Below are positions 13,698 through 50,035 of a stretch of 64,000 nucleotides of DNA, piece after piece. The DNA is from Ulva prolifera (taxonomy: Eukaryota; Chlorophyta; Ulvophyceae; Ulvales; Ulvaceae): positions 1,743,713 to 1,807,712 of the forward strand of contig CM041201.1 in assembly GCA_023078555.1 (NCBI GenBank), read 5' to 3'. The position numbers and the translations under genes were made by a program. Position 1 is the stretch's first letter, and every line of letters begins with the position of its first letter. The notes beneath the pieces were generated by a model. It had not been told where the DNA came from, did not search any database, and was given only the letters and a program-made list of their open reading frames with translations.

Positions 13698-13779
13698 TGA
13701 ATCGGAGAGCTGACGTAGTGTGTGCGGAGGGGCAGTTGGAGAGCCTTCGGAGAATCGGTGGAGGCCGGACGTAGGTTGC

Positions 13780-14495: not shown

Positions 14496-17137
14496 CTACT
14501 TGTAAAGCAATAAGGAGTCTTGGATCTTAACCAACTCCGCCTGCAGGCATGACCAGATGCATGAGTCAGGGGCAATCATCCGTGTCTCCCAGACCACCTG
14601 GGATCCATTCGTGGTATGGGTTAATCATATGCAAGCAATGATTTAATACAGACTTTGGTGTTAAATGTAGTATCAACTGTATCGAATCAAGATTGACGTA
14701 CCGTGAATAGCGCAATATCATCTTTTAGTTTCTTCACTTCCGGTTTCTTACTCGTGGGCCGATATGCCGCCAGCCGAGTCTCGTACTCCATAATCTTTGT
14801 CTTCAACTCATCACGTGCTTCTTCGTCAGCTTTCTTGTCGGCCTTGGCCTTTCGCCTCGCGATCGCGTCTTGAGACTTCTGCATCGCGCAAGAGCTCTTC
14901 CAGCTGGCAGGGCATTGGACGGGGCAATTACCCACGGACAGAGATCTCAGACACAAGCAGTTATCTGGAGAAGCCGTACCGGTGCCATGGCTTGCACTTC
15001 CATCTCCGGTGAGGGGCTGCGTGCGTCCGCAGGCTGATCAGGTTCGGCCGCTTCATCCGACGCGGCGGGATCTGCCTCGTCCGCTTCCGGCTGCTGTTCA
15101 CTGTTATCATGAACGGGTTGGTCTGCCCTTGATCGTCGCAGGAGTGCTCGTGGTGGGGATGGCAGATCGTCGAGCACCTTGCGCCGTCCTGTGTTGGGAT
15201 GACCTCCCTGTCTCGATGCCTTGTTTGCGGTAGGTGCCTGCAGGCGCGCCTGCTTGTCTCGGTCGATGTCACAGGTAGAACACATTAGTGGCGTAGTCAG
15301 TACAGGGTGTCAGGTGGAAGTACCTTCCCACTCTTTCTTGGTCTCTTGCCAGGCTTCATGGGCGAGTCTGCGGTCCCTTCGATAGCGCGTCGGGCCCCAG
15401 TGATTGCCATGAGATTTTCGCACACATACACGCCGTCCTCCATTGCCCATGCCTCGGGCGTTTTCAATGGTTCGTGGTCTATTGGGGTCCGGTCTCCGCT
15501 AAAGGTGAACTGCACAGGCTCTTGGTACGTCGCGTGCAGTGCAATACAATGCATGACGCGCTGGAGTAGCCATTCGGCGAATGGCTACTCCAGCCGCGTG
15601 CAGTGCAAGACAATGCATGACACCGCACCGAGTGGCCATTCGGCGAATGGCTACTCCAGCCGCGTGCAGTGCAAGACAATGCATGACACCGCACCGAGTG
15701 GCCACTCGGCGAATGGCTACTCCAGCCGCGTGCAGTGCAATACAATGCATGACACCGCACAGAGTGGCCATTCGGCGAATGGCTACTCCAGCCGCGTGCA
15801 GTGCAAGACAATGCATGACACCGCACCGAGTGGCCACTCGGCGAATGGCTACTCCAGCCGCGTGCAGTGCAATACAATGCATGACACCGCACAGAGTGGC
15901 CATTCGGCGAATGGCTACTCCAGCCGCGTGCAGTGCAAGACAATGCATGACACCGCACCGAGTGGCCATTCGGCGAATGGCTACTCCAGCCGCGTGCAGT
16001 GCAATACAATGCATGACACCGCACCGAGTGGCCACTCGGCGAATGGCTACTCCAGCCCCTACCAAGGAGAAGGACGTACCTTGGATTCCGCTGCCTTGTG
16101 CAGTGCCGCGAGCAGATGGGGCTCTTTACGATACGATTCCTTCCTTCGCATCGCCACGTTGTGGTCATACGCCCGTCCCGGAAACTTCCTGCACACTCGG
16201 TAAACGCCCCTCAGGCTGCCCATATCGGGCCCGGGACGCAACACCCCAGCTGCATCAAAACAAGTCGAAAACTTAAGCGTAGAAAACTTAAGCATTAAGC
16301 TGCGCAGCGCACTGTTTGTTCTTGTTGCTGAGACAGCCAATCTGACTGTAGAAAGCGCTGCTGATATTCCTCGCAGCGACGTAACCAGGGCCAGTTTTTC
16401 CGTCCTGTACAGAAGATCTGTCAGTAAATACTGCACGCATGTATTATCACGGACAGGATCCAGGAGCTCACACAATAGGTCGGCAGCCACAGGTGCTGGA
16501 GGGCTGACCGCGGACGACATGTTCCAAGCACGTTGTTATTCTGACATGGCTGTCGCACCCCTGCTGCTGCTTTCCTCAGCGCGTCCGCGTAACCTTTCGT
16601 CAGCATGCTGCCTGGGTACATCCTCTCGTCTGCTGGGGCCTCCTCGTTGACGAGTGCAGCCACCAGCTTTCCTTGTTTGTCAGCCTCCGCCATGCGAGCG
16701 ACTTTTTTCTCCATCCCTGCCGTCCACATCAGCACCCCATCCTTCATGCGCTTCCACTTCTCGTCATCCTCGCCCGCAACCGTGGCGGTGGAACAGGCAG
16801 TGCCCTGCGCTGTCGGCGTTGCTGCAAAGCTCCCTCTCCCTTTCCCCAGCGGCTTCACGAGCACGGGCGACACAAGCACACCGGCTATGGTGCCTTTCTT
16901 GAAGAAGTACAACACGCAAGTCTTCAGTTTATCTTGACTGTCGATGTCTACGGTGCTGTCCTTGTCAACCGTCGACGCCAGAGTTAAACCGTCGACGCCG
17001 GCGCCTCTGCTCCATACGTTGCTCACCAGCACATCGAGCATCCCTCCCCCGTCCTCTACATCCTCTACATCATCTACAACCTCTTGCTCGATCACGACCG
17101 GCGAGGCGCGATGAAATGTAAACTGGAGCTTGGTCAT
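14496..17137 (-). CDS. Element 1 gene C, unknown coiled-coil protein
   Basis: Minus-strand, multi-exon gene without a recognised family. Exons supported by identical phases in the element 2 copy: 17,137-16,559 (193 residues, ATG start, MTKLQFTFHRASPVV), an exon ending at 16,080 (KFPGRAYDHNVAMRR), 15,509-15,324, 15,249-14,980, 14,878-14,702 and 14,540-14,496 (AELVKIQDSLLLYK, stop). At least one exon between 16,559 and 16,240 is not resolved. The 186-nt exon encodes EAWAMEDGVYVCEN. The next is acidic and Pro-rich. The 177-nt exon is a charged coiled coil (RRKAKADKKADEEARDELK). The intron 16,079-15,510 holds the palindrome array. By position and charge it could be the regulatory DNA-binding partner of the transposase (a TNPA-like role), but this is only inference. 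Confidence 0.7.
15562..16058. repeat. Palindrome array, 66-bp period, 8 sites, element 1 left
   Basis: Eight palindromes of the form GAGTGGCCATTCG-G-CGAATGGCCACTC, spaced 66 bp (first centred near 15,577, last near 16,038). Several copies have GGCTAC in the right half or CCACTCGG in the left half. Spacers carry GCGTGCAGTGCAA and ACAATGCATGACACC. The whole array lies inside one intron of gene C. Because 66 is divisible by three, long frames without stops run through it on both strands; they are not genes. Confidence 0.95.
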
Positions 17138-17454
17138 ACTGCGGTAATCGACGTAGATGTTTAGACACTAAGAGACGCAACGGCAGTAGGTGTTATTGTG
17201 AATCAGTATCAGACATAATTGTCCTGGCATGCTGTGCTGTGCCGCGCTTTCACTGGTAAGGCAGTCAAGCGTCGTTGCGGTGTCTGCCTTTGAATACCGG
17301 TCTGCCTCGATATCCCGGCGCACGTCCCGTCGCCGTGGCGGCCAGGCGTTCTGTGTACGTGTCGCTGTACTCTTTCGACCTGAATGCGGTTGTCCTCACA
17401 GTAGGTGCCAGAGACTCAGGTAGCCTTTCCACCCCTTTCTGCCGGCCGCTGGAG

Positions 17455-20400
17455 ATGGCATCCAGAAGGACGAGGGATGAGGTCGATGCCTTGATGGGAG
17501 AGATTAACTGTAAGCGTCTACTCCGTCCAGAGCGTGTGGGGAAGGATACACTTAAATTCCAGTGTCAAGCCTGTGGTGAGAAGTTCGTCAGACATACCAC
17601 CGCTCAAAACCACTATGAGCCTTGCCAAAAGCGCTTGAGGAGGGCCCCCGCCGCCCGTGCCAAGGGAGCCGCTGGTGGCCACGATGGGGCAGGTCCATCC
17701 TCGCGGCCACCTACGCCATTCTCCTCCGCTACCCTTGGGGCTGACGTCAGCGGGGTTCCCGATGGGGCTGGCCCCTCTTCGCCACAGCCCATACCCCCTG
17801 CGCTGGCTTGCCACCCCAACCATCCCGCCAACTCTGACGACCTTTTCGCTGTGCGAACCCCTCCATGCATCCCGGCGCTCTAGGCCCGCGTGCCTTGCCT
17901 GCTGTTGTTTGGTCTGACAGTGACTGATGTGGCCCATGGGTGGGCCCGCTGTGGACCCAGGCCGGGCGGTGCGGCTGCCCATACCTGCATCTGCAGCTAC
18001 TGCACTAATTCGCGTGATTTTACAGCTGCCCCCACCCTCCGACATCGACGAGGCCGAGTACCCCGCCCGGGATACAGACTCGGACTCCTACTTCTCAGAC
18101 GCTTCTTCCATCCCCTCCTCGTCCGAATCAGAATACAGCACGGACGGGTCCGAGGTGTGGCAACTTTAACATCGGGGCATGTTACGTCGTGTCTCCCCTG
18201 GCGTGCTGATTTCCCAGGTCACATGTGTATCCCTCTTGCAGGACGATGACGTCGACAGCCCCCCCCCCACCACCGGGGCCCGGAAGGGCTCAGGAGCCTG
18301 GTGGCATAAGCAACGAAAGAAACACATATACACCGGGAGCGTCCTCACCGTACTTACGGTGTGCATGTGGATTGCGCAGTTGAAGAGCCTCTTTCGCATA
18401 CAAGACGTGGTCGTCGATACATGGTGCAGGTTCATACATTACCTCTTGCTACCTGATGGCAACTTTTTCCCACCCTCGTTCCACCTCGTCAAGGCAGTGC
18501 TGGATGTCCCGGATGTGTCGTCCGTGACGCGGCACGTTTGTCCCCAGTGCTGGGAACTGTTTCCTGAACTTGATCCAAGTGACCATCAGCATCACTTGGA
18601 GGACACCTGTGGCACACCTGGATGTACACAGCCACGGTTCGATGTCGACCTCACGGGAAAGGGTGTCCCAGTCCGCTCTGTCTTCTACTTTGGTGAAGAG
18701 GCCTCACTGAAGGACCTCCTGCTGCAACCGGGGCTGCTGATGAGCATCCAAGAAGCCAGGGCAGCAGCGATCGAGGACAAGACCAGCTTCATCAACTCCC
18801 CTGCAGGAAAGGCCCTGGACAAAGCATATGGGAACAAGATTACAAACCCAGAGGCCGGGGAAGTCGTTCTGCTGTTCGGTCTCGGTGTGTTCAGCCCTCC
18901 CCATCTCTGTCGCTCTGCTTTCTGGAAAACGCAGTGAATTGTGTCCCTTGGTGGCCTCACCACTCACTTGCAGGGGGGGATGCTGCACAACTGTATGTCA
19001 ACAAACAGCACGGCGTCACGATCTGGGGGATCCGCCTGCTTGATCTCCCGCCCCATCTCGCATGTACTAATGAGGCCTGGATTCCCCTTGGTGTGGTGGA
19101 GGGTCCATCCGAGCCGACATGCATGGCCAGCATTCTGGAGTCCGTGGTGGCGTTCTTCAAGAAGCATGATCGGGGCGCGCACTCACCTTGCCTGCCTGGC
19201 CACTGGCGCGTGATGTGTACAGTTCCCGATCACGTAGTGTCTGGCCCCCGCACCGTGTGATGGCTTGAATGCAGGAGCTGGGGGTGAGGCACTCAAAATC
19301 ACACTGCCAGGGGGCGAGGTACTGTCCGTTTGGCCGGTGCTCTGCTGTGTGGAGGGGGATATCCCCTGGCTGGAGAAGCTTACTAACAGCATCGGTCATA
19401 CGGCCAAGAGGGCATGTTTCAGATGCGCACAGAACGGCGTGTGGGTGTTCGCCGCCAACACTGTGAGGTGCGTAGTGTCTGCGTCCAGGCACATCCCACA
19501 CCTGCCTGTCTTGGCCCTAACGTTTTCTTCCAACCACTCCTCACCTGCGTGCAGGTGGCTTGGACACCATCGCCCTCTACAGCAGCCCGCCCCCTGCTAT
19601 GTCAACGGGCCTCTGAAGGGGAAAACTCTCACTCCAGAGGAGGAAGCTGCAGCATCGACGGCAACCCCGCGGATGGTGGCCGGGAGTGTGCAACCCGACG
19701 CAGGGGGCATCCCCCCGCGGACTGCGTGGACTGAACCGCAGCCGGTGCCACCGAGTTCATGGATGTCAGACAACCGACTGAAGTACTCGGCAGCGGAGAT
19801 CATGGCCAGGGGCAGGAAGGGCGACAAGATCGCCGCCCAGGTGCAGCTTCGTATGCTCGGTCCCTATTCCCCATTCCCGGACTACTGCATTGATCGCTCT
19901 GTGGCCACTCCATCTCGATGTTCACCATACTGTCGCCAACACGACCTGAAAGCCGTCTGACCAATGCCACTAGCAGGTGGCGCAGACGGAGTGCCATTGC
20001 ACCCCCGCAGGAATTCCCAATGCATGGGTGGGCGTTCAGGTGCATACTCCGACCTGGGATCGATTCCGCAAAAAAGACACGCCGGAGTTAAGGGCTAAGC
20101 TCGCCAAGGATGAGTACAAGCTATTGGGTGTGAAAGGGTCCCCGCTGTTCAGCATCCTCTCCTACTTCAAGTTCGCCCTGCACCCTCTGCCGCATGCTGC
20201 TCCCTGCCTTGCCTTCGAGTCAATTTTGTGCACCCCATCATGCGTCGCGTGCAGCCCCTGTCATTTTTTCCGGCTTGGAGTGGCGCACGTCTTCCTGCTT
20301 GGAGTTCTGATGGACTTCTGGAACCAGTGGCTCCCTCCCCTAGGCAGGAAGAAATCCAAGAAGGCGCCCCCGACAGGGCCCTGCGCCCTGTACCGGTTGC

Positions 20401-21964
20401 CGGAGGATGTTGTCAAGGCGATCGCCGCCAGAGCTCCCCATATAATGCAGACGTCTCTTTTCAAGAAAGTGCACACTGACATCACCAAGTGCGTCACCTA
20501 TGCCGTCAGTTCCTAGGCTGTGCCGACACTTCCCCTGCCTGTGGAGGGGCCCACCTGTAGCCGGTCATCGCCGTGTCATCACCTCTGCATGAATCACTTG
20601 ACGGAAGGGTCTCCTGCAGGCACCGCAGTCGGTGGTTCATGGAGGACTGGCTGGCCTTTACTGAGACATTCTCCCTGTACCTCCTACACAATCTCCCGTG
20701 GAAGCCGTCCGAGTTGCCAATTCGGAAAGTGTTTGAGCAGATGTGGGGGCTCCTGCGATCAGGGGCCCTGTATTTCCTCAGATATGAATCGGGGCAGCAC
20801 ACACCAGCCCGGATCACACAGGCCCAGGGGACGCTGCTGCAGTACGCCAAACTCGCGGAGGAGACGTTCGAGGGAGCTGCTATCAGTACCTACAAGCTGC
20901 ATCTGGCGGCTTGTCACCTCCCTGATCAGGTGAGGTGTTGCGGTGCAGCCTTCTTCAGTCTCGAATTCTGGATAGAGCGGATGGTCCAGCTGCTGAAGAG
21001 GCTGATCAAGTACCGTTCCACTCGTTGTCCAGAGCAGGTGTATGTGAACGATGAATTGCTTCGTCGAACTTGCATGCGGTTACTGCACGATGCTGGCACA
21101 GTGAATGCAGCCATGACAACTCTGTCGGATGCCATTGCCACCGAAAAACGCCGGAGGGCGCGAACGCGCAGTGGCAGGTCAGCACCCGAGCAATCTCTTG
21201 ATATTGACCGGGTTACCGGCCGGGTGCATGGTGCTGGCAGGGAGCTGTCTCTTTCGGAGTCAGCCGAGGTGCTCCCTCTGGACTTCAACGGAGGGGCCAT
21301 TTCCGGGCTGCCGTACCTCCTCCTCCACCAAGACTCCCTCCAGGAAGAGGGCTGGCCTACGCACCGTCGCCTGGGGGCGGGCCATGCCCGCCGGGTGGCT
21401 GTCACCCGGGCTATCGGGTTGCCGGTGAGAGGTTCTGTAGATGAAAGTCGCAAGGAGGGCACAGTGACCCTGTGCAAATTCCAACGGGTACAGTCCCGCG
21501 TGGGGGACGTCTTCAGCAGTGCACAACAGTCAACACAGGGTAAGAAGGATAATAAGTGGTGCCTCGTGAAGTACCTTATTGAGGGGGGTCGGGGAGAGGG
21601 CGGAGGGACAGTGACGTACTACGTAGGGGAGCTGCAGTACTTGATGCGGGCGACGTTGCAGCCCCGGGACGGGGTCACCTGCGTGTCATGTGTGCACGAG
21701 CCCGACCCCTTGTATCTGGGGGTTGCCGACCTGTATAGGAGTACGGAGCCAGTCACACCCGGAGCCCGCGCGCCGGACCCCGTGTTGGGGCGGCCCCCCG
21801 AGTTTTTTTGTGTGGCGGGTGCACACCGTGGGTCCAGGGCGTATGAAGGCAGATACGTAATAGACGTGGATGCTGTGCCCTGCCAACTAGTCCCCGTCAG
21901 AAGTAGTGTACAATGTGTGCAGTATTGGGCGACTGCCAATAAGGCTTCTGGCCGCACGGTGTGA
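17455..21964 (+). CDS. Element 1 gene A, Tnp2-like CACTA transposase
   Basis: Cut-and-paste transposase of the Tnp2/Transposase_21 type. Exons: 17,455-17,850, 18,026-18,154, 18,242-18,884, 18,974 to about 19,209, 19,289 to about 19,462, about 19,555-19,840, 20,040-20,170, 20,255-20,488 and 20,620-21,964. The phases of exons 1-3 and 7-9 fit; the start of exon 6 is unresolved. Exon 1 has a C2HC zinc finger (CQACGEKF...NHYEPC), exon 2 is acidic. GGDAAQLYVNKQ holds the probable first catalytic Asp. IRLLDLPPHL...VVEGPSEP and GDIPWLEKL...RACFRCAQNG align by eye with the Tnp2 LPP and inDfPAYG...CPhC regions, VAHVFLLGVLMDFW with its DPMH...LLGV region, and ISTYKLHLAACHLPDQ...FWIERMVQLLKRL with the DUF4218 region. 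The position where Tnp2 proteins have D-x-x-H reads G-V-A-H. Confidence 0.88.
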
Positions 21965-22292
21965 AGGACCCTTGCTGTCATGTAAACTATCCCTTCTGTC
22001 CCTGAGGGACGGATCATTTGGGACCAAGATGGACCGAGACGGGTCGTGTTCAGCGTCAACATATGTACACCGGTGGTCGCCTGCCTCATCCAGTCCCTGT
22101 GCTCAGTGCCCGTGTAGCCACATGTGGCCTTCTTCGACCACCGGCGTCGCAATCGCTAGCGCATGTCGTCTCCATTGCACAGAATACTACCTGTCGATTG
22201 TGCAATCGTCTTTGCCAGTGTATGTTGACAATGACGAAGGAGTGAGGTTTCAATTCGCGGTGAATCTCAGAGTACTGTCGTCGTGTGCAAGT
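21965..22292. promoter_or_regulatory. Spacer between genes A and B, element 1
   Basis: 328 bp between the transposase stop and the ATG chosen for gene B. The gene B frame stays open upstream, but in element 2 the sequence diverges upstream of the corresponding ATG (41,159), so coding is not conserved here. It probably holds the gene A 3' end and the gene B promoter; no TATA-like motif stands out. Confidence 0.4.
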
Positions 22293-25200
22293 ATGATCTC
22301 GGCTGGGGCCTTACGGACATTGAAAGCTAAATTAGACAGTAATGAGTCGTATGAGAAGTCTTTCTATCGATTCGTGAAGGCCGCAGAGAGAGGAAAGTGG
22401 ACGCATGGGCAACCCATCCCAGAGATATCGCTATGCGACAGGGACGCGGGATTCCCCGTCGATCTCATGGGTCTTGGCTACGTTCTTACAGCAGCAGACA
22501 TTACCATGGTGGGATGTGTGGTAGCAGCCGGTGGGGACGGGCTGGAGATGTACCTTGATTCGATACAGGCGATGAAAGAAGCGGCAGACGCAGTGACCCC
22601 GACGGACAACGACTCCTACGTAGAGTGGAAGATGGTGTCCTTGTGGCATGACCTTCGAGCACTCGCGTTCGAGCGCGCGGTCCGTACCGAGGCCCCGTGC
22701 GAGCCCCCAGAGATTGTGTTGTATAGATCGTGCCTGGACACGGTGGGAGTGGGGGAGGATGCCGGCGGCGCCCGCGAGCGTGTGCTGCTCACAGGCGGGA
22801 CAGAGAGGATACGGGAATGGGTAGAGCGGGAGTCCACGGCTCCGCGGAATCCGGTACCGAAGTGGCCAGCGGCTGCAGTAACGGAGGCCCCGCTACAGGC
22901 ACCGAGGATGTCAGTGCAGATCGATCTGGGGGACGCCGCTCGCTCGAGTCCGGTGGGAGTTCCGAGGCACGCCATAACCTCGGGACCCGAGGAGGACCGT
23001 GCTTCGGTGCAGGCTGATTCCAGCGTCGGCAGTGCATCGGAGGGCGGGGCCAGGGGAGGGCGTGGTCAGCGGCTCAGGGGGCACGGGGGGAGGCCGGTTC
23101 GGGGTGGGCATGCCCTTAGTCGTGGGCAGAGCCTACAACAGCCAGCACAGCTGCGAAGGGGGGGTCATCGTGGCAGGCGAGGGGGTGCTGCCGCAGTAGA
23201 GCGGGCCTTGGGAAGTCAGGCAGCCAAAGGGGGGGAGCACGCGAACCCCCAGACCGATGGGGGGCCCCAGACAGCAGAGCCGCCTGAGCAACTACAGCCT
23301 GTCACCCTAGAGGCACCTGCCTCCCCACCCTCCAGGACCACCGGATGTCTGCCCCCACCGCTGGAGGGCTTGGGTCCATCACAGGCCGCCCCGCCCGCGC
23401 CCAAGGCGTCTGTGCTGCCAGGTGGGTCCAACCAAGAGCCTCTCCCAGCAGCAGGAGAGGACGTCAGTCACATCGACACCCCCCACTACCCTGGTGGAGG
23501 GGTGGTAGCGGGCGCGGGCCCGTCTGCCGGGCCTGGCCCCATTGCCCCCAATGCGGCCGGGTACAGCGCGGCCACCCCCATCCCCGGCGGCGCAGACCCC
23601 ACGGCGCAGCCACCCGCCGACCCGTCCGGGGCTACCCCCGGACTGGTGGGGCCGAGGCTGCCTGCCCCCCACCCGGGAGCGGCCGAACGAGATGCTGCTA
23701 CCATGGCTGAAGGTGGCGGGGTGTTGTCCGTCGCACATCTTGCCCCGCCTTTGCCTGATCCTCCGGCGTGGGTTTCAAACCTGCCAGCCAAGCCTCGGGC
23801 GAAACTGAAGCAGCTGTGGTCGCCCATTGCTCCAGGAGCTGGCGCCGTGCAGTTGCATGGGGGGGAACCTGCGACGGAGATTTCCTCCGGCGAAGACGAC
23901 GAGCCATCTCTACCGACGGGGGGAGTCTCGGTGCAGCTGGGTCACTTCGGGGAAGCTAGGGTGTTTGTGGTGGTGAGCTTGGATGCCCTCGGGAGAGGCT
24001 GGCCCGAGGAGTGGCTGGAGTCGACCCACGTAGATTATGCGTGTGCTAGATGTGTGCAGCTGGCAGGTGGGGGTGTCATCGCAGTGCCTAGCCTGAACAT
24101 GGCTAGGGTGTGCATGGGGGATTCGGGAGCAGAATGGACTGAAAGCCGCTCCGTCGCCTTGGGGAGCTGGCTGCACGGAGCGCATGCATTCGAACACGAT
24201 TGCATCCTCGTCCCAGTCCCGCGGAACGGCCATTGGGCGTTGGCTGTCGTATGGCATCCATGTACGCTCCCTCGGCTGACCATGCCTGTGCAGAGTGTTA
24301 GGTGGGCATATCGTCCTCTCACCTGGCGGGGAGGCCCCTGACTGTCAACACACATTGTGCTAGCTTGATGCAGGGCTCATGCTACAAGACCAGTCCCCGA
24401 GTATGTTGTTTTTTGACAGCTTCACGGAAGCCGGGCCGGGCACAGCTGAGCGGGTGCAGGACGCCCTAAGCGAGGCCCTGTGCAGGGCTCTCGACAAGGC
24501 GGATCCGAGGGCAGGATCCCTCGAGGGCAGGGCCCCCGCTCATGCCAACCCCCCCCCAAAGCCCCAGTCACTGCCGGCAGGACAGGGCCGGCGACACAAT
24601 CTTAGATTGGTCACCCGGCCGACAAAAGGAACGGCGAGGATAATGCTGAAGTTGTCGAAGGTTCGAATCTCACTGTTATACACGCAGCTTAGAACGAGGC
24701 CTAGCAGTCCCTGAAATCTGCGTACAGCGAGTCGGATGAAACAACAAATGACCTTGTAGCCCCATTACAATCCGCATCCCGGCCCCACCCCTGACAGCAC
24801 CCCACTGGGCCGTTCCATCGTTCTGGACCGTACGTTGCATCGGTTACCCGATGTCACCTCAGCCCCCCACCAGACCCCACTGTGGAGTGCAGGTCGCCGG
24901 AGTCCCGCAGCAACCGAACGGCCACGACTGCGGGGTCTACACAGCTTTAATGGCCGACGCGGTATGCCAGGCTATGAGCGAGATGCGACAGGAGGGGGGG
25001 GACATGTTGCGCAGTGATCAGCACGGCGTGGAAGTGACTCGAAGGATCCTTGCTCGCACAAAGCTCATCAGCGTGCAACACGCGGTTTTGTACCGTATCC
25101 TCGTCACCCGGGCACTCATACAAGAGTGGCACCGGGGTGGGAGAGGTGGCGATGTGCTGGGCCGCCTATCCGCGGAGGATGCCACCAACATTCTAGCCGA

Positions 25201-25593
25201 CGCGAGATGGGACCGCCACCTCCAGTCTCCGCCCTTTTCAAACAAGACCGAAGAGGAGTTGAGGTATGCACCTCCACACCCAACTGTGATGAGCAGGGCT
25301 ACCTGTTTCCCTCGATGCATCTCGGCGCAGTAGGGTTCCACAGGGGTAGCAGTCCCATTAAGTATTCAGAATCTCGGCAGAGCTGCTCCCCCCCCCCCCC
25401 CCCCCCCCCCCCCCCCACCCCGCCGCAACGCCGCTGTATCAAGACCGTCTCACACTAGGGACTACCTGACTGCAGGCTGTGGTATCTCCAAGCGAGTTTT
25501 GACGCCTTCATGGAGGAAGCAAAGCCGCACGTCAACACACTCTGCAGGCAATACAACCGGTTAATGGCCAAGAACCTGCAACTGCGTCGCTGA
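22293..25593 (+). CDS. Element 1 gene B, long protein with Ulp1 (C48) protease
   Basis: Predicted 914-residue protein in four exons: 22,293-24,261, 24,374-24,660, 24,893-25,263 and 25,476-25,593. All phases agree and no stop intervenes. The ATG at 22,293 is placed where homology with element 2 begins. Residues 1 to about 190 form a conserved domain of unknown function (GLEMYLDSIQAMKEA, SLWHDLRALAFERAV). A Pro/Gly/Arg-rich, probably disordered linker follows. The C-terminus is a Ulp1-type cysteine protease: His647 in NGHWALAVVWHP, Asp671 in LFFDSF, Gln758-759 and Cys765 in PQQPNGHDCGV. Proteases of this family cleave SUMO-like conjugates, and similar domains are known from plant transposons. 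Intron 3 contains a poly-C tract. A nuclear role in processing element or host proteins is inferred. Confidence 0.9.
25388..25418. repeat. Poly-C tract in gene B intron 3
   Basis: A run of about 29 C interrupted by little else, 60-80 bp upstream of the CTGCAG acceptor at 25,475. The length is uncertain because such runs are error-prone in sequencing. Confidence 0.9.
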
Positions 25594-35931: not shown

Positions 35932-36268
35932 GGTGGATGATTAGACAAAGCGGAATTAACACACGTCTATGGCCCGTACTGTGGATGGTCGTATCGTAGG
36001 CACAGCTAACATATCGCGTCATTCGCACATGCTTTGCTGCTCCGTGCTTTGAATGGTATGCCGATGTAGCGTCGTCGCGCGGTCCGCCTTCAAAGGTTTG
36101 GCTGCCTCGATACCCCGGCGCCTCGCCTGGGATTGTGGCGTCAGGGCGAACATGGGATGCGACAGGGAGGTCTTCGTGGGACGTAATGCCATCATAGGGA
36201 CGACAAACACCAGAGGCCGCGCTATCGTTGAACATCTTCACAAGAATGCTTAAGTCCGGCTGGCTACC
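35932..36268. promoter_or_regulatory. Divergent promoter region between genes C and A, element 2
   Basis: 337 bp between the divergent starts of gene C (minus, 35,931) and gene A (plus, 36,269). The equivalent region in element 1 is 17,138-17,454. It is presumably a shared bidirectional promoter; no clear TATA box is seen. Confidence 0.5.
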
Positions 36269-39200: not shown

Positions 39201-40795
39201 GGCCTCCGGGCCCTGTTCCGACTGCCAGAGGATGTCGTCAAGGCGATAGCTGCCAGAGCGCCCCACATCATGCAGACCTCTCTTTTCAAGAAGGTGTACA
39301 CCGACATCACCAAGTGCGCAGTCCCATCGCCTGCACACCCTGCTCGCATCCGAGGCTGCGCCATTTTTCGGACTGTTACTTGGACACAGGAACCATGTGC
39401 ACTCCTGTTGAAGCATCCCGTCTGAGTCAGGGTGACTGTTTGCGTAGGCACCGCAGTCGCTGGCTCATGGAAGACTGGCTGGCCTTCACCGAGACATTCT
39501 CGCTGTACCTCCTGCACGATCTCCCGTGGAAAGCCTCCGAGAAACGCATACGCAGCGTGTTTGAGCAGTCGTGGGGGCTCCTGCGAGCAGGGGCCCTCTA
39601 CTTTCTCAGATATGAAGAGGGTCAGCACACACCGGCCCGAATCACGGAAGCTCAGCGATTGCTGCTGCAGTACGCCAAACTGGCGGAAGAGACGTTTGAA
39701 GGGGCTGCTCTCAGCACGTACAAGCTGCATCTGGCGGCCAGTCACCTACCGGATCAGGTGAGGTGCTGAGGTGCATCCTTCTTCAGTCTTGAATTCTGGA
39801 TCGAGCGGATGGTCCAGCTCCTGAAGAGACTGATCAAGTATCGATCGACTCGTTGCCCTGAACAAGTATATGTGAGCGATGAACTGCTGCGCCGCACATG
39901 TATGCGGCTGTTGCATGATGCAGCTTCACTGCCTGCTGCCATGACTTCACTGTCAGATGCCATAGCGACTGAGAAACGCCGGCGGGCACGAACTCGCAAT
40001 GGAAGATCCGCTGACGGGGAGCAACCAATTGACAGTGACCGGATCACCGGCAGGGTCGTGGGGGTGGGCAGGGCCCTTGCCCAGTCTGAGACTGCGGCGG
40101 TCCTCCCCCTGGACTTTGTGGGAGATAATCTGACAGGGTTGCCGTACCTCCTCTTCCATCAGGACTCCCTACAGGACGAGGGCTGGCCAACTCACAGTCG
40201 CCTGGGGGTTGGTTATGCACGTCAGGTGGCCATCCACCGAGCTCTGGGCCTGAAGGTGGATGGCAGTGTTGATGAGGCTCGCCGTGAGGGCACAGTGACA
40301 CTTATGAAGTTCCACCAGATGCAATCCCGCGTTGCAGACATGTTCAGCTGCGCGCAACAGTGTACGCAAGGGAAGAAAGACAACAAGTGGTGCCTCTTGA
40401 GGTACCTCATTGGGGGGGACGGGGACGGGGGTGGCGGGACAGTGACGTATTTCGTCGGGGAACTGCAGTATTTCACGAGGGCGTGTCTGCAGCCCCGGGA
40501 TGGCGTGTGTTGCGTGTCATGTGTTGCGGAACCAAACCCATTGTACCTGGGGGTTGCTGATCTGTATAATTGCACCTTGCCAGCCACCCCGGGAGCCCGC
40601 GCCCCAGATCCCGTGTTGAAACGTCCCCCCGAGTTTTTCGGTGTGGCGGGTGCAAACAGGGGGTCTCGGGCATATGCCGGCAGATACGTCGTAGACTTGG
40701 ACGCAGTTCCATGCCAGTTAGTTCCAGTCCGGAGGGGTGCACAAAATGTGCAGTATTGGGCCACAGCGAACAAGGCTTCTGGCCGAACTGTGTAA
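36269..40795 (+). CDS. Element 2 gene A, Tnp2-like transposase with in-frame TGA
   Basis: Homologue of element 1 gene A. Exons: 36,269-36,667, 36,840-36,968, 37,053-37,695, 37,810 to about 38,045, 38,125 to about 38,298, about 38,399-38,694, 38,869-38,999, 39,080-39,313 and 39,448-40,795. Exons 2, 3, 7 and 8 have the same lengths as in element 1 (129, 643, 131, 234). The ATG context ACCATGG is favourable. It has the same C2HC finger (CLGCGEKF...NHHGPC), GGDGAQLYVNKQ, LPPHL, CFRCAQNG and VAHVFLLGVLMDFW blocks. In exon 9 a TGA at 39,767-39,769 stands where element 1 has TGC, just after HLPDQVRC; the frame stays open and conserved beyond it. Element 2 may depend on transposase from another copy, unless the TGA is avoided by splicing. 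Confidence 0.85.
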
Positions 40796-41158
40796 TTGTA
40801 CAAGACCACCGCCAAATGCCTTCGTCAGCAATCCCAGTTGATGGCAATCCCAGTTGTGCCCACTTTGCATTTTCCATACTTGCCAGAGGGCCACGGGGGG
40901 GACCAGAGTCCCCGCCAGTGCGTGTCTACAGGCGCCACCCTCGTTGGAGCCATACAACCCACGTCCTGCGGCGTGCGCTCGTGGCCACTTTCGCTCCCTC
41001 TTCAAGCGTCGGTGTCGTCTGTTAGTGCACGTCGCAGGTCCAGCGGACAGATTAATGGTAGGTGCAAGGTCTGATGCAGTTGATGTAGGAAGACTGCGTC
41101 GCGATAGCGCGGATAGAACGTTTCTGTGCGGTGTACAGTCCACACGATGTGTGCCAGT

Positions 41159-44100
41159 ATGATAACGGACGGGGACTTGCGGGCCTACCTTGCGACAATT
41201 CGTAGTAACCGTCAGTGTGACTCGTCTTTCAAGCGGTTCCTGGAAACCGCCCTGAAGGGTAACTGGACGCCTGGCCAGCCGATCCCAGCACTAACGATCT
41301 GTACCCGGAAGCCCGGGTTCCCGATAGACTTCATGGCCAACGCCTACCTATTAACGACTGTAGATGTTACCATGGTGGGCTCTATAGTGGAGGCCGGGGG
41401 GGAAGGGTTAGAAATGTACCTGGACTCGATCCGGGCGATGAAGGAGAGTGTAGAGGCTTCACACACCGCCGACCACGCCGCGCGGGTAGAGCAGAAGATG
41501 AAATCCCTCTGGCACGACCTCCGGATGATCGCATTCGAGCGCGCGGTCCATACTAAGGCCCCGTGCAAGCCAGAGGAGATCGTGCTGTACCGGTCTTGCC
41601 AGGTCGGCGCGGGCATCATAGAAGACGCTGGCGGCCTGCTCGAACGTGTGCGGCACACGGGCGGGACAGACTTGATCTGCGAGTGGATACAGTGCGAGGC
41701 AAACTTCGCACGGACTCCAAATCCTAAGTGGCCTGTCTCCGAGGTTCAGGTGGGGCCTCTGCAGGCGCCCATGTTGGCGTTACAGCTAGAGAGGGGTGGG
41801 GCGGGCGGGTCGCACGGTGAAGACCGGGGGGGACCCGACGCCGCTCTTGGGGGCGTCACCGGCACCGCCACACCCCCAGGACCGGGTGCAGCCGCTGCCC
41901 CGCCGCCAACAGAGTCCAGCGGCACCAGCATAGGCCCGGGTGACCGAAGGCAGGGGCGTGGCAGACACACCCATCCGCGGCAGCAGCAGCGGGTTGGCGA
42001 GGCACGAGGGGCACGGGCTCCGGGTAGAGGGCGCGCAGATCGGGGCACCAGTCTTCAGCAGCCCGCCCGAATTAGGTGGCCCAGGGGGGCACGGGGTGCC
42101 GCACGGGATGGGGCTGCGGCCGTAGCGCAGATCATTAGCCGGGATCATCCGCCGCCCGAGGGGCCGGCTGCAGTAGGGGTTCCCCCTGTGGCGTTGCCCC
42201 AGCAGTCCCCACAGCCGGTTGGCCCTGTGAGGCCGCCGTCGCCATCGCGGACCAGTGGCTGTCTGCCGCCGCCGCGGCTGGACGAATCCGCTACAGCTAT
42301 CGAAACCAGACTAGCTGCCGCAGACGCGGGGCCGGCAGGTCCCCCGGATGATCCCCCCGCCTGGGAAGGGCCCATTGCGGACCCCCCTGCCGAAGGAGAC
42401 AATAAGGCGAGGTCGGACACCGATGCCAATCCGGTTCCATCCGTCACCCCTGATGATGGCCCTAGCGAGGGGCCCCAACCTGCCCCAGTCGGTGCAGCCA
42501 TCTGCTCCATCGGCGAGGCCCCCCCCCCGCTCCGGACCTCTCCGGAGCCTGCTTGTCCAGCACCCGGTCAAGAGGGGCCAATCCTGTCCGCACCTCCTCC
42601 TGCCCCGGACGTCCCGGAGCCTTCGGCCGCCGGTAAGGATAAGCCGCGGCTGTCAGCATCCCTCCTGGCACACCCTCCGGTGGTGCCGCCGGATTGGGTC
42701 ACAAACTTCCCTGCAAAGCCTCCGGGCAAGCTGAAGCAGCAGTGGGGGTCCACTTCCAAAGACGCCGGTACATCCGCTGCCGACACAACGCAGGAGGCAG
42801 CTGAACCGACCGTAGTGTCCTCCGACGACGACGATGGGGAGAGGTTCCCGAATGTTGTGGGGGGTGTGATCTTGCAACTAGGGCATTTTGGGGATGCTCG
42901 GGTGTCTGTGACAGTCGGTCTGGAAACCCTCGCGAGAGGCTGGCCCACCGCATGGGCCGAGAGTACACACGTTGACTACGCCTTGAGTAGGTGTGTCGCA
43001 CTGGCCGGGCAGGGCGTCATTGCAACGCCTAGCCAGAATATGGCTGGGATATGTACTGGGGATGCGGACGCAGACTGGTCAAGCGGACGCACCAGATTTA
43101 TGGGGCGGTGGTTGTTCAAAGCTCACACCTTTGAGCAAGAATGTGTCTTAGTCCCTGTCCCCCGGAACGGCCACTGGATGTTGGCTGTCATCTGGCATCC
43201 ATGTACGCTCTCCCGCTGCAGCAGACTTTGTGATGAGGTAGCCTGCTGTGCGTAGGACTGTCATATTGCCCCCCGCCCCCCCTTACCCCCCCCCCCCCCC
43301 CCCACAGTAGGCCCGCTGAACGCCACTACTGACGTTTCAGCCATAATGCAGGGCGTATGAAGCAGAATAAGGCGCCGACTGTGTCGTTCTTTGACAGCCT
43401 GATCAGCGCCGGCTCAGGCACCGCTGAACGGGCCAGGGACGTCTTGAGTGAGGCTCTGTGCATGGCGCTGGACTACCCCGAGGGCCGGGCCCCCTCCCCC
43501 CCGGAAGACCCCCCATCTACCACCCGGCCTCGGGTAAAAGCAGTGGGCCGCCGACACAACGTCCGACTGGCCACCCGGCCGACCGAATCCACCGCTAGGA
43601 TAACCCTGAAGTTGGCGAAGGTACAATGCCCACGTCCCACTGTTCTCCTGCGATACCATCCACACAGATGCTGTCCTCTGACCCTTGACAGTCGCGCATA
43701 TTACCAAATGGACTGCAATCGTTGACACAACAGCACCCTCTGATTGCGCCCACCTGACCCCCCCCCCCCCCCCCCCCCCCCTCCTTCTCTGCCCGAACCC
43801 GGACAGCGTACTGCTTTGGAACCACCCCGCGTCCAAGGTCTGCGGTGGACTTGATCTGTTGACGTAACATTAGCATTATAACCGTCCCCCAATGGTGTCC
43901 AGGTAGGAGGAACCCCGCAGCAACCAAACGGCCACGACTGCGGGTTTTTCACATGCATGCTGGCCGACGCTGTGTGCGACGTCATCCACCGCATGCGACA
44001 GGAGGGGGGAACTGTGTTCAGCAGTGACATCCACGGTGACGAGGCGACTCGAAGGGTCCTGTTACTCACCAACCGCGTCAAGGTGCAGCACGCGGTGCTG

Positions 44101-44508
44101 TACCGTATCGTCCTCACTCGAGCCCTCATTCAAGAGTGGCACCGAGGCGGGAGAGGGGGCGACAAGTTGGGACACTTATCAGTCGAGGATGGCACCAAGA
44201 TTCTAGCCGACGCTAGGTGGGACCGCCACCTCCAGACACCGCCCTTCAAAGACTTTTACGAAGAGCAGCTGAGGTGCGGGCGAGTCGATGCACCTGCCAT
44301 GTCCACCGCAGCATTGTCACCATCTATCCTCTGGCACCCCCTTGGAGGCCCGGTGGGGACCTTTGCCTGATGAAGCTGCTGGATCTGCAGGGAGTGGTAC
44401 CTGCAGGCGCGCTTTGACGCCTTCCTGGAGACTGCGCGCCCGGTAGTGGCTACCCTGAAACAGCAGTATAACAAGCTGATGGCTAATTCGCTGAAGACGC
44501 GTTTATGA
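41159..44508 (+). CDS. Element 2 gene B, long protein with Ulp1 (C48) protease
   Basis: Predicted 933-residue protein in four exons: 41,159-43,202, 43,352-43,620, 43,903-44,273 and 44,391-44,508. Exons 3 and 4 have the same lengths as in element 1 (371 and 118). The start ATG begins MITDGDLRAYLATIR. The N-terminal domain is conserved (GLEMYLDSIRAMKES, SLWHDLRMIAFERAV); the Pro-rich linker is not. Catalytic residues: His672 in NGHWMLAVIWHP, Asp696 in SFFDSL, Gln777-778 and Cys784 in PQQPNGHDCGF. The last exon is a conserved helix (WYLQARFDAFLE, QQYNKLMANSLK). Two introns contain poly-C runs. The complete catalytic set in both diverged elements argues that protease activity is under selection. 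Confidence 0.9.
43288..43306. repeat. Poly-C tract in gene B intron 1, element 2
   Basis: C-runs at about 43,268-43,306, upstream of the acceptor at 43,351. A second run of about 21 C lies at 43,760-43,780 in intron 2. Confidence 0.85.
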
Positions 44509-45176
44509 GACACTGAAGGGTGGCATCCGGGAGATTCCGACGCCACAGGCCAGGTGATGCCATTTCGCTGCAGCTGCACTGAACCTCGGTGTCTCGACTG
44601 CAACGCTGCGGGCTGCTGCCAGGCAGGCACAGCTGAAACTGTTCTGAACCCATTGTCTACAGAAGACAAGACGCCACAGTTTGCGTACGGAGTTCGACTC
44701 AGTATTCTAATCGTTATTTCGTGTAAAAAATACTATCAATCCTCAACGGCTACACCAGGTCGGCGCTGTAGGATTAGAGGGGTACAACGGTCAACCCCTG
44801 CATTATAGCAGAGCGTATGGCACTAGTAGACGGGGGTGCATCACTGTACAGTGATGTGGCCCACCGTCCTTGTGTTACCGTCGAAATGGGAATAATTTTG
44901 ACGTATTCCCGTAGCATCTGCATTAACAAAGTTACTATGCTGATACTGCCGGGAAGTTCTACGCTTGATGGCTTAGCGGACACTGCACGCCGCATTAAAG
45001 TGTACTCCCACGCAGCTGTGCTACCGGCACCCCCATCCCCCAGGGACTTAGCTCATCAACCAGTATTCACCACAGGCCCCCATCCCCCAGGGACTTTGCT
45101 CATCAACCAGTATTCACCACAGGATCCGGGGCTGGGACGGCTTCGCTGCCCTCTGTAGAATTGCGTCCCTGCACGG
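44509..45176. repeat. Spacer between genes B and D with a 49-51 bp duplication
   Basis: No gene. At about 45,030-45,121 a unit of about 50 bp (CCATCCCCCAGGGACTT... ATTCACCACAGG) is present twice in tandem. The region is otherwise unlike the same spacer in element 1. Confidence 0.6.
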
Positions 45177-48100
45177 TCAACATCCCTGGGTACTGTACGT
45201 CTGCCTTGGGAGCGGGAGTAGAGAATTGGCCCACCACGGCCATGCGACAGACTGGCCAGGGGGGGTGGCGGGGGTTGTTTGCTTGGAGGAGCGCACCGTC
45301 TGAATCAGTGACACAACTTCGGATACAGTGCCTTCATCTGGTTGGAGCCCGTAAGCCGATATGATCGACTTCATGCGGACTAAGCGCTCCGCTTTAGTCA
45401 AACCCATGCCGGCGGTGCTTACCAACATCAGGTCCACTGCCACGACAATGAGCCGCAGTTGAGCTGCACGCCCGACCGAACCACCCGGAGGGGATACGAA
45501 AGTGGCGGCCATGTGCAGGGTGGTCTTCTGCTCCTCGAAGGACTCGTCCACGGTTAGACGAACTGACCCCGAACTATCGTGCAGGTAGATTATTTGGGAC
45601 GGCCTAGTCTCAGGGTCCTCTGCCGCCACTTCGTGCTCAGCGCAGCGGGGGTCCGCTGGGTCAGAACGAACCGAATCGTCATCCAAGCTGATGGATCCGA
45701 AATCGTCTGAGGAGTGGTCTTCCGGATACAGCACTGCCTCAGCGAGAGCATCTGCAAACATGGCGTCTGCTACCGGATCGTACACCAGACCCCCACTTCC
45801 TCCCGCACTGTCCGGTTGCATAAACCCTGTAGGTGTCGGTGCCGGTCCCCCCGCCGGCACGGGGACAGGCAGGCCAAAGGGGCCCACTTCTGGACGACCT
45901 GTAGCGTCCTGACCCTGCAAGGGGATCCCCGCAACATCCCCCACAACTTCCCCCCCCACTGGTGGGTTCAACCCGCCACGCGCCGCCATGTCTGCCATAG
46001 CTTCCGCAGCCCAGCCCCCCCCAGCCCCCCCCCCCCCCCCCCCCGCCCCCGCCACCGTTGGGCTCAACCCGCCCTGCCCCGCCAAGCCTGCCGTAGCCTC
46101 CGCGTCTCCCCCCCCCGCTGCCCTCCCCTCCACGGGACTCAGTCCCGCCTTCAGCGCTGTGACTGGCAATGCCTCCGCAGCCCCCCCAGTGGCTGCCACC
46201 CTCACAGTGGGGTTCAATCCCGCCTTCGCCGCCGAATCTGCCACCGCCGCTGCTTTCCCCCCCAAACCACCCCCCGCCCCACAGTCAGGCTCAACCCCCC
46301 TGTCACTGCCGTGACCGGCAGAGCCTCTGCGGGACGGCCACACGCATCCCCCCCCCGGCTGGGAGACTGCCCCCCCCTGCCCCGGCCCCGCAGCGGCACC
46401 CGGGCCGAGCACCTCTGGCCCTGTGGCCACCTTGGACGCAGGGCGGGTGGTGCCCCTGTCCCCACCGGATTCCTGAGTGTCGCTGCCGCCGGTGTCGGTG
46501 CCGCCAGCGGCTGTGTCCCCCTTCTTGGCTGGTGGCAGGCCCATCTTACGCAGCAATAGCGACTTGGTACGTGCTTTAGCTACCTCGTGCTTCCCGGTTC
46601 GTCGACGGTTGCGCTGGCCAGAGGCAGGGGTGTCACCGGCACCCCCTGCCCCAGGGGTAGGCTGGGGTGGTACGACAGGCGGCTGCCGCAAGTCCTCGGG
46701 CAGGGTGGCGAGGATACCTTCGGGAATGTTATTGAGCTCCACCCTGTAAAATTAACCAGAGTCGCCAACAACAAACAGAACACGCTGGTAGTCCCAGGGC
46801 CCGTGCATGTCAACTCTGGATCAACTAACAGCAGCACATGCTCCCGTTGGTGAAAGAACAGGAGGATCTGATGGCCAGAACTCAGACGCATACGACTGAA
46901 CATGCAGGGAGCATGTTCTGCAAGAGACACTCCTGGTCACTGTAGGGACCATCACCGGGGGTTCGCACATGTAACACTTTGAGCTCTGCATCCCCTTGGC
47001 CAAGGACAGCTTGGCAAGCTCTTCAGCGCCGGCATAATCCCAGTCCTTGATCTCGGGGAATGATCCTGGCCTAAGGCGGACAACCGACGGGGATGCTGAT
47101 TTCCCGGAACTGCTCCCCGCGATGTCTTTCTGCACCACGCTAAGGTACCGCCAGCTCCTGAGCGCCCAGTGCCACAGCGTGTGGGGCGGGCACAAGGGGA
47201 TCAGGTCGTCGGCCAGCCTCTTGACGGGCTGACCATACCCCGATTTCACCAAACCTGGATGCACCGCGTGGTTCAGACGAGAGCACTGTCTGCAAAGCTG
47301 AGTCTTGCCCCACCTCGGGGGCTACAGCAGGTAACAACTGAATCCTGAACAATGGAGACGAAAAGGTTGGTAGCGCACTGCTGGTATTCACCGTGCACAC
47401 CAGGATGGCGGCAAAGGCGGGATCCAGGAGGCTGGGCTCCAAGACTGGAATGTCCTGCACACGCCGCCTCTCCAGGACAGGCGCCCCCGGGTCCCCTGTC
47501 ACAGCCGCGGCGACGAGGCGCCGATAAGCATGCATGAACAGGTGGACCCCATTCGTGGCGAAGGACGCCAGTTCCGTAGAGGTCAGCTGCAGCCCTTCAC
47601 ATGCCCACATGATGTGGGAATTGAATGCCTGGACAGAACTCCACGCCGGACGGAGAGCTCGGGCTACTCGGTCACCCTGCACGGCGAGATCCAGGTATAC
47701 TCAACAATTGGGGACGGGCAACAGCAAGCATATACAGCTCTGCACAGACACGCAGCTCTCGATGGCATGTACAGGTCAGTGGCACCTCGCACCTCTGCAC
47801 AATCAAACAGAGGGTGCTCCGCCGCATAAGCCACTACCCAGGGTCCTAAGTTGTCGAGCGCGGCGACAAACTCACCGAGGATCTTGACATCCTGCACGCA
47901 AAGAGACCTGACTACAGAGCTCGAGCCCAGGCCGGTGACAGGCCAGTCTTGAGGGATCAACAGAAACAGGGCCCGGGGCACCATGGCCACGATCATGCAT
48001 GCGATAAGGCACAAATGCCGGGTAGAACAGGACAGCACACAGACCAACAGGCAGTCCCCCTGTCCATGCCGGAGTCATGTTAAGTCACCGGAGCGCACGA

Positions 48101-49316
48101 AAGCTTTGATGAGGTCCGAGTGCGAGGTGTGCATGTCGACTAACACCGGCGCGCCCGAGGTCAGCTGGAAAACCGGCTGTGCAGGGACCCCGTTTGTGTT
48201 CGCCAACATCCTGGGGCACCGGTACCCAATGTGCCGTGCTATCGACTGACACGGCTCGAGCTCATCTTCATCCATGCTCTCGAGCTGGGCGCAGTGTGCG
48301 TGTTCATACAGCACCCACGCCACCAGCGGGTTCAGGTCCTCTGGGAGGTTGGATGTGGGTCTCTCCCTGCTCCTGGAGGACCCGTGACCCTCCACCGCGG
48401 GAGAAGCCTTTCCGGCTGTCCACAACTTGGTGCGATGAGGGGACAGCCCAGACATGAAGGAAGCCCAGGCCCACACGACGTGTCGTGGGGTGGAGCAATG
48501 AAACACTGCACCGAGAACACCCATGTCACTTGTGCACGAATGCGGAGGCCATGCCGCGCACGATGTGGGGACAGCATACGTGACTGCGTTACATAACAAC
48601 ATGCGTGCAGAGAGCACACCGTCTGGAGGCGGGGGGTCCGGGCCTTTGCGCTTTTCCCCCACGTTGATCTGAGGAAGATCGAACCGCTGGCGAAGTTCCG
48701 GATCTCTCTCCGCTGTGATTCTGGTCTTAGGGAGGCCAGACTCACATACGTGGCCGGTGATCTCAACCTGCACAAATGGCGGCACTGAGTCCTGGCCCCA
48801 CTCCACAGGTTAGCTGGGCCCCGTGTCAGTGGACTGGCAGTAAATGCAGATCGCGCTCAGCTGATCCACCAGCACACCGGGCACACACACCTCTTTCTTT
48901 CCCAACAGGGGCTTCCACCGCCGGGGCACAAGGCAGCCATGTGGGGTCTTCCCTGTGCCCTCCCACGAGGACACGAGCATTGCCTGCTCGTGCAGCCAGG
49001 AGGAGAGCGCGAGACAGGTAGTGACAATCACTTCCTTGGCCGTACCCAGCTCCCTCGTCCGACTCTCCACCACGTCGTCTCGCAGAACCACCCCCAGGGA
49101 CCACCACACCGACACCCCAGGACCGGACAGTGGACCGTCGTTGCGGCCGACGCGGGCACGATCCGTAAAACGCCCGTCCCTTGAAATTAAAGTACCCACT
49201 ACAGGGATTCTCTGAGTACGCATGCGACCAACGAGTAAGTCTCCGCTGCGAGCGGAAGTAGGCCCATTCTGGGTACTTGACAGTCCTGCAACTGCTGCAG
49301 CATGGCGCGGATCCAT
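45177..49316 (-). CDS. Element 2 gene D, unknown seven-exon protein
   Basis: Predicted 1,081-residue protein, homologue of element 1 gene D. Minus-strand exons: 49,316-48,891, 48,767-48,620, 48,505-48,099, 47,891-47,793, 47,676-47,399, 47,289-46,969 and 46,743-45,177. Exons 1-6 match element 1 in length exactly; only the low-complexity last exon differs. Conserved blocks: MRTQRIPVVGTLISRDGRF, GEKRKGPDPPPPDG, RERPTSNLPEDLNPLVAWVL, GVHLFMHAYRRLVAAAVTG, LWHWALRSWRYLS, and a C-terminal GRAAQLRLIVVAVDLML...YGLQPDEGTVSEVV. A Gly/Ala-rich middle part includes a Gly run encoded by poly-G (46,018-46,044 region). No catalytic signature is recognised. Selection on the globular parts across two lineages indicates a real function in the element's life cycle. 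Confidence 0.85.
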
Positions 49317-49570
49317 TGTATGCAAATAAATATTTTGGTCACTGCCGGAAGCGGAAACTGGTCACGAGCAGCGCAGCTAGGCGAAGGAATACGACGCCAG
49401 CAGGGACGCGGTGCACTTAAACGCCAGGTGAACTCCAAACGCTGGAAGTTAGCCGTATCATACACTATATCCACCGTTTGTCCCTTTCATGAAGCACGAC
49501 CCAAGTTGGGGGCCCCGAATGCAAAGGCGCCTGATCACTCGGGTAGGGCAGGGTGAGATCAACCGCGCTG

Positions 49571-50035
49571 GAGCGGTCATTCGCCGAATGGCCACTCTGG
49601 ACCAGCGCATGCATTCGTGTCCAGGAGGACGGGCGCACGCCTTACCTGGAGCATGATGACGTAACTCCGCCAGAGTGGCCATTCGCCGAATGGCCACTCT
49701 GTACCACCGCATGCATTCGTGTCCAGGAGGACGGGCGCACGCCTTACCTGGAGCATGATGACGTAACTCCGCCAGAGTGGCCATTCGCCGAATGGCCACT
49801 CTGGACCACCGCATGCATTCGTGTCCAGGAGGACGGGCGCACGCCTTACCTGGAGCATGATGACGTAACTCCGCCAGAGTGGCCATTCGCCGAATGGCCA
49901 CTCTGGACCACCGCATGCATTCGTGTCCAGGAGGACGGGCGCACGCCTTACCTGGAGCATGATGACGTAACTCCGCCAGAGTGGCCATTCGCCGAATGGC
50001 CACTCTGGACCACCGCATGCATTCGTGTCCAGGAA
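49571..50035. repeat. Palindrome array, 102-bp period, 5 sites, element 2 right
   Basis: Five palindromes CCAGAGTGGCCATTCG-C-CGAATGGCCACTCTGG at 102-bp spacing, upstream of gene D. The unpaired centre base is C where the left arrays have G on the same strand, so the two arrays face opposite ways. Spacers contain GCATGCATTCGTGTCCAGGA and GATGACGTAACTCCGCC. Element 1 has a single site in the corresponding place. Confidence 0.96.

Follow-up and report, generated by a model that had tools for sequence, protein, structure and literature searches.

Tandem palindrome arrays that share a core with the tips of large CACTA transposons in Ulva prolifera

The window analysed here is a stretch of 64,000 nucleotides from the green alga Ulva prolifera (assembly GCA_023078555.1, contig CM041201.1, positions 1,743,713 to 1,807,712); positions below are those of the window unless a contig is named. 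The genome has 38 matches to chlorophyll-binding proteins, which mark the host as photosynthetic; their nearest solved chain is 9vfj LHCI-2. It contains two CACTA (En/Spm) DNA transposons with arrays of a long palindrome inside their ends. Element 1, of family A (13676..31575, plus strand, 17,900 bp), has CACTAGGAGAATGGCGACA tips at both ends and is flanked by the target site duplication (TSD) TGA (left copy 13673..13675, right copy 31576-31578). Element 2, of family B (32267..50570, plus strand, 18,304 bp), has the tips CACTAGAAG... and CACTAGGAG... and the TSD GCC (left copy 32264..32266, right copy 50571-50573). The tips of element 1 lie at 13676..13694 (plus strand) and 31557..31575 (minus strand), each with the core GAATGGC inside, and those of element 2 at 32267..32285 (plus strand) and 50552..50570 (minus strand). 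Both elements start and end with the form CACTAG(A/G)AGAATGGCGACA; such tips and flanking 3-bp duplications are hallmarks of CACTA elements. A further feature of the superfamily, motifs repeated within the two ends in direct as well as inverted orientation, was also found, with the left arrays lying unusually deep. A preliminary description of the window had placed the palindromes in a single interval, 15562..50035, which covers two separate elements plus the 691 bp between them.

Element 1 carries eight palindromes at a 66-bp period on the left (15531..16057, centres 15577-16039) and a single one on the right (31012..31058, centre 31028). Element 2 carries seven at a 64-bp period on the left (34208..34626, centres 34228-34612) and five at 102-bp spacing on the right (49571..50034, centres 49584-49992). 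All of these counts and periods had been given in the preliminary description and were reproduced. With up to two mismatches, the half-site matched 51 times in the window against 2.4 expected from shuffles (largest shuffle 7). The palindrome had been described as 33 nt long, which holds for 4 of the 21 sites, where the perfect dyad reaches at least 33 nt (three of 33, one of 35); at the other 17 the central perfect dyad spans 7-31 nt, and the unit common to the palindromes is 27 nt. All eight right arms of the element 1 left array have GAGTAGCC in place of GAGTGGCC. The palindromes occur toward both ends of the elements, as described, but "near" is too strong for the left arrays, which start 1.89 kb (element 1) and 1.95 kb (element 2) inside the tip.

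Each unit is a composite site, formed by a dyad on the core CGAATGG(C/T) and, usually, the hexamer ATGCAT with its centre about 24-30 bp from the dyad centre. In the window, ATGCAT lies 25-27 bp to the tip side of every centre in the element 1 left array and on the tip side in five of the seven units of the element 2 left array, and it is present in each unit of the element 2 right array and at the single right palindrome of element 1. Among 157 palindromes (excluding those of two short elements, L043 and L045), a search 18-36 bp from the centre found ATGCAT on the tip side only in 127, on both sides in two, on the inner side only in none and on neither side in 28. Eight palindromes in the "left" class of this count come from right arrays that are displaced inward, those of L030 and L031. 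Because element 2 was taken one base short at its right end, its right-end distances in the tallies of core and ATGCAT positions are one too small. The composite pattern of palindrome and ATGCAT had 373 matches in the genome (88.9 Mb in 44 contigs were searched), compared with none for a reversed control. We take ATGCAT to resemble the CATGCATG motif of plant B3 proteins.

Since ATGCAT faces the tip at either end, the left and right arrays mirror each other relative to the tips. The left arrays and the element 2 right array thus do face opposite ways, as had been proposed; the mark of direction is the side of ATGCAT and not the centre base (G or C) on which the proposal relied. The centre base was rejected as a marker, since the element 1 right palindrome has G and several arrays in other copies mix G and C. 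Likewise, the spacers differ between arrays, but the palindrome is not the only part kept, since ATGCAT recurs in most units.

The exact A/B-type tip occurs 122 times in the genome (control, 0), frequently paired about 18 kb apart, and the exact tip of a sister family, C, occurs 120 times (control, 1). The 3-bp TSD matched in 10 of 11 fetched A/B tip pairs and in both short elements, L043 (C2:7364721-7370771, 6.05 kb) and L045 (C3:1549937-1553367, 3.4 kb). These two have both tips and one palindrome array apiece; neither contains a listed transposase match, and L045 retains a piece of gene R (described below). At least one palindrome was present within 5 kb in 37 of 42 fetched ends (40 loci), a count in which the two tips of L043, and likewise of L045, view one and the same array. 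Left arrays start mostly 1.8-2.2 kb inside the tip with periods of 63-70 bp, and right arrays mostly 0.53-0.6 kb inside it, with spacings mostly of 102 or 110 bp and lone values of 93, 146 and 153 bp. Where present, an array holds 1-8 palindromes, and spacings overall range from 63 to 153 bp.

In the sample examined, the palindromes are largely confined to these elements. We took the first 100 listed half-sites of each type, all on contig C1, which reach to 10.0 Mb for A/B (of 804 exact half-sites) and to 2.84 Mb for C (of 1945). Among the A/B half-sites, 95 are located inward of an exact A/B tip at up to 3 kb from it (random points, 0.6%), and none is within 4 kb of a C tip; four of the other five stand beside gene L of a copy whose nearer tip is inexact, and one is isolated. 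An unrelated satellite, the finding that the preliminary description had named as fatal to its proposal, is ruled out for this sample. Among the C half-sites, 55 have an exact C tip within 4 kb, and none has an A/B tip within that distance. The remaining 45 comprise 31 in an array at C1:979 kb, two that adjoin a transposase match in the manner of the family C middle array (see below), 11 near C1:2.84 Mb (11 kb from a tip) and one at C1:1745586. The seemingly orphan array at 979 kb has a one-mismatch tip about 1.05 kb away. The palindromes are therefore best read as internal sites of subterminal type belonging to a large CACTA lineage. Two family C arrays, at C1:1026588-1027641 and C1:979078-980251, contain about 30 half-sites each, indicating that copy number can expand greatly; the former lies within a tip pair that spans 6.5 kb and has no listed transposase match. 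Family C tip pairs of 6-9 kb occur in the genome.

A family C copy (C2:7604018-7621747, tip CACTAGGAGAATGGTGAC, duplication CGT) has its own palindrome, CCCGAATGGTYGGTGGSCCACCRACCATTCGGG, arrayed at a 66-bp period about 2.17 kb inside the left tip; a variant of it, with units 83-92 bp apart, stands about 0.55 kb inside the right one. Arrays thus stand at similar places with a different palindrome: position was kept and sequence changed. A further two-palindrome array is located between the transposase and Ulp1-like genes of this family. The part common to the A/B and C palindromes is GAATGG plus one family-specific base, with counts of GAATGGC and GAATGGT of 19 and 1 in element 1, 27 and 2 in element 2, and 0 and 30 in the family C copy. 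The tips carry the same base as the palindromes, GAATGGC in A/B and GAATGGT in C. A 7-base match to the tip arose in 182 of 20,000 shuffled half-sites for A/B and in 142 of 20,000 for C. Across 60 distinct A/B half-sites, taken from palindromes with at most five mismatches and related to one another, the seven-base core was the best-conserved part, with 10 deviations in 420 cells compared with 43 in 360 elsewhere; given the relatedness of the half-sites, the p-value of this contrast is no more than indicative.

The coding blocks of the elements were delimited from the excess of third-position differences between the two elements and by comparison with families C and D. In element 1 they comprise gene L (16421..17137, minus strand, 238 aa; matched in families A, B and C), a transposase gene of several exons (18236..21961, plus strand; sub-threshold DUF4218 match in 20573-21964), an Ulp1-like (Peptidase C48) gene (22251..25321, plus strand; PF02902, E 5.6e-4, 20.2 bits against a cut-off of 20.7) and the exons of gene R (26481..30823, minus strand), whose first conserved block begins about 190 bp inside the right palindrome. 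In element 2, gene L (35209..35931, minus strand) encodes 240 aa, and the open frames of gene R occupy 45177..49325 (minus strand) with the conserved block extending to about 49418. The right arrays stand about 150-250 bp upstream of the putative start of gene R. Two TATATAAG boxes 45 bp apart (34913..34965, plus strand), 287 bp inward of the element 2 left array, are a possible promoter; no such pair is present in element 1 or in the family C copy. The gene R frame of element 1 contains a 29-aa repeat, encoded by about six 87-bp repeats (27314-27843); a different low-complexity stretch occupies roughly the corresponding position in element 2.

Transposase identity to family A is about 79% for B, 60% for C and 38% for D. 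With a 463-aa transposase query, seven family A copies, that of the window included, were 99-100% identical and open, which suggests that family A has probably been active recently; in element 2, a single in-frame stop interrupts the region covered by the query. Genes L, R and the Ulp1-like gene are common to A, B and the C copy. Profile searches against solved structures gave two chance-level matches for gene L (E 0.4) and none for a transposase fragment.

Two copies of more distant families were compared. The family D copy (C4:2807526-2822218, L052/L053; tip CACTACAAGAA..., duplication CAA) was read whole, and the family G copy (C2:12335784-12348356, L059/L060; duplication AGG) over 4.2 kb on the left and 0.86 kb on the right. 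Within these stretches both copies lack GAATGG palindromes and end arrays of the kind seen in families A to C, and in the outer 2.7-3 kb at each end of the D copy no 10-mer is present in more than two copies. The D copy had no match to gene L, gene R or the Ulp1-like gene at E 1e-5, and none of the 105 genome-wide matches to gene L or the 95 to the first block of gene R falls inside the examined D and G copies. It is thus in the A-B-C lineage that end arrays and these three genes occur as a set; gene L and gene R thereby become candidates for the binding protein, on thin evidence from two copies. The D copy does have an internal array (L057:3377-5044 on C4; 344-bp period, 4.8 copies) just after the transposase gene, at the place of the family C middle array. 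In each unit, ATGCAT lies about 20 bp from the centre of an imperfect dyad that is 29 nt long and unrelated in sequence. This hints that sites combining a dyad with ATGCAT near gene starts may be older than the end arrays. In the G copy, a 94-bp array of three copies without a long dyad lies 0.15-0.43 kb from the right tip. Both copies stand within satellite arrays (169-bp; 160/339-bp) with 3-bp duplications, which in two of two cases suggests a preference for, or survival in, satellites.

Three further observations concern repeats. At L040 (C2:6204237-6209297), an exact A/B-type tip lies about 0.6 kb from about 72 AGGGGTT 7-mers followed by a 168/334-bp satellite, and palindromes are absent. 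Outside the elements, the window contains a minus-strand open frame of 943 aa (57128-59959) with 84-bp tandem repeats (58547-59058) and no Pfam match, and a run of about 46 TTC units (9391-9527).

We propose that a protein encoded by the element binds the palindromes as dimeric sites and reads the tips as well, and that these sites serve in end pairing and probably in promoter control; we give this reading a probability of about two-thirds. An element-encoded, probably dimeric, DNA-binding protein would load cooperatively on the arrays at both ends and would also bind the single core copy in each tip; this loading would bring the two ends of the element together so that it can transpose by cut and paste. 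Promoters of the element are probably under the control of this protein too, a role proposed because the right array is just upstream of gene R and because family C has an array between its transposase and Ulp1-like genes. A dimeric protein pairing the ends had already been suggested in the preliminary description. The suggestion now has in its favour that the arrays accompany the tips, are mirrored between the ends and have a core that covaries with the tips; binding, dimerisation, synapsis and promoter control are what we infer from such features, with the transposase, gene L and gene R as candidate proteins. More tentatively, and at somewhat less than even odds, one dimeric protein may read both the CACTA tip and the internal arrays, its specificity having switched between GAATGGC and GAATGGT in sister families while the dyad was turned inside out and ATGCAT was kept.

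Several observations weigh against this proposal. About 1.9 kb from the tip, the left arrays are far in for a classical subterminal site, and the short elements L043 and L045 hold only one array each. A/B-type palindromes were absent within 5 kb at five of the 42 ends (L013, L035, L038, L040 and L044). The stretches of L035 and L044 contain family C palindromes, and L012/L013 is an otherwise normal complete tip pair with matched TSD that has no left palindromes within 5 kb. The palindromes of element 1 are mostly imperfect dyads, and unequal exchange can homogenise tandem arrays even where no selection acts. In family C, of which one copy and parts of three others were read, the half-sites face the dyad centre and ATGCAT is on the inner side, the reverse of A/B, so the site appears to have been rebuilt and not merely point-mutated. 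Among 100 C half-sites (20 distinct), AATGGT is invariant, but other positions are too, and the core is not singled out. The covariation of tip and palindrome is suggestive, but it consists of one base (C to T) in two groups and so may reflect a single event. The internal array of family D fits a promoter role better than end pairing. As for the transposase itself, DUF4218 scored below its curated cut-off of 27 in both the transposase gene (E 0.018, 15.3 bits) and family D (E 3.8e-4, 20.7 bits), and a genome search with PF02992 (Transposase_21) gave no match, its controls being likewise empty and the result hence uninformative.

A rival view is that the palindromes are operators only, which repress or activate the element's own promoters and take no part in end pairing. 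The position of the right array upstream of gene R, the extra two-palindrome array of family C, the array that in family D closely follows the transposase gene and combines ATGCAT with another dyad, and the two TATA boxes inward of the element 2 left array all fit such a view. Regulation alone would, however, leave aside that the core is common to the tips and differs between families in tips and palindromes alike, and that the arrays are inverted relative to the two ends. Moreover, the two short elements keep an array without a listed transposase match (L045 still has its gene R piece), and the TATA pair is confined to element 2 among the copies compared. We therefore consider operators without end pairing rather unlikely.

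It is improbable that the arrays are a passive minisatellite, grown by slippage or unequal exchange inside the elements, functionless and with the dyad as a by-product. The tandem structure, the copy number of 1-8 and the range of spacings are those of a minisatellite, CACTA elements can carry satellite arrays (PMC8978399), and tandem arrays, though of different sequence, are also present in the D and G copies. Passive growth does not account for similar zones at both ends with inverted symmetry and a family-specific association with tips, for an A/B half-site core conserved above the rest, or for the retention of ATGCAT between left and right arrays despite their differing spacers. The long dyads, and the fact that ATGCAT accompanies most units in the arrays read from families A, B and C and also occurs in that of family D, would also suit a structural or host-targeted feature, such as a cruciform, replication or silencing site read as a hairpin or by a host protein. 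Against this, each tip holds a single non-palindromic copy of the core, which a hairpin does not explain and which argues against a cruciform as the main role, and most dyads of element 1 are imperfect. In the sequence comparisons made here nothing spoke for silencing, replication or cruciform formation in particular, and we regard this last explanation as similarly improbable.

Like CACTA/En-Spm elements of plants, which have CACTA tips, a 3-bp TSD, repeats inside the ends, a multi-exon transposase and shorter copies (PMC2613891, PMC8978399, PMC8195511), the Ulva elements show all of these features. They differ in their long-dyad arrays (27-nt unit, mostly 63-110 bp spacing, left array about 1.9 kb in), in the core shared with the tips, in the ATGCAT partner and in genes L and R, and also in the empty Transposase_21 search, in which the controls were empty too. 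DUF4218 has been reported within CACTA transposases (PMC8978399). In En/Spm, TNPA binds subterminal repeats and also regulates the element (PMC2613891), and the transposase recognises the CACTA tips (PMC8978399). Unlike this division between two proteins, a single protein would read both sites in Ulva, a contrast we draw with reserve. A close parallel is the 20.5 kb soybean CACTA element Tgmt*, which has palindromic subterminal repeats, two on the left and 12 on the right, and whose paper notes that subfamilies within one genome differ in the repeated motif (PMC2613891). The Ulva elements share its large size, its palindromic repeats and this difference between subfamilies. The Tgmt* palindromes, however, lie within 159 and 732 bp of the tips, and the passages describing them give neither a tip-shared core nor a regular tandem period. 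A C48 domain next to the transposase has been reported in grapevine Cactavine and in Chenopodium CACTA elements; the Ulva elements have the same neighbourhood, but their Ulp1-like homologue is distant and borderline-scoring and is joined by genes L and R. Literature on palindromic or tandem subterminal arrays and on algal CACTA elements, covered mostly by title and in passages of PMC2613891, PMC8978399, PMC2528002 and PMC8195511, contained no description of such arrays. Subterminal repeats in CACTA elements, palindromic ones included, are thus already known. What appears to be new, within the literature covered, are regular long-dyad arrays with a partner motif, a left array far inside the element and a tip-shared core that changes together with the tips.

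The coevolution of CACTA subterminal repeats with their binding proteins is an open question in the Tgmt* paper (PMC2613891). Sister families that share a genome and differ in a matching way at the tip and at the internal site bear on it. The near-identical family A copies, together with the candidate binding genes, make the pairing of protein and site testable, including whether families stay separate by it. If a single dimeric protein does read both tips and arrays, these families would offer a natural series in which to follow the coevolution of transposon ends with their binding protein toward families that do not cross-mobilise.

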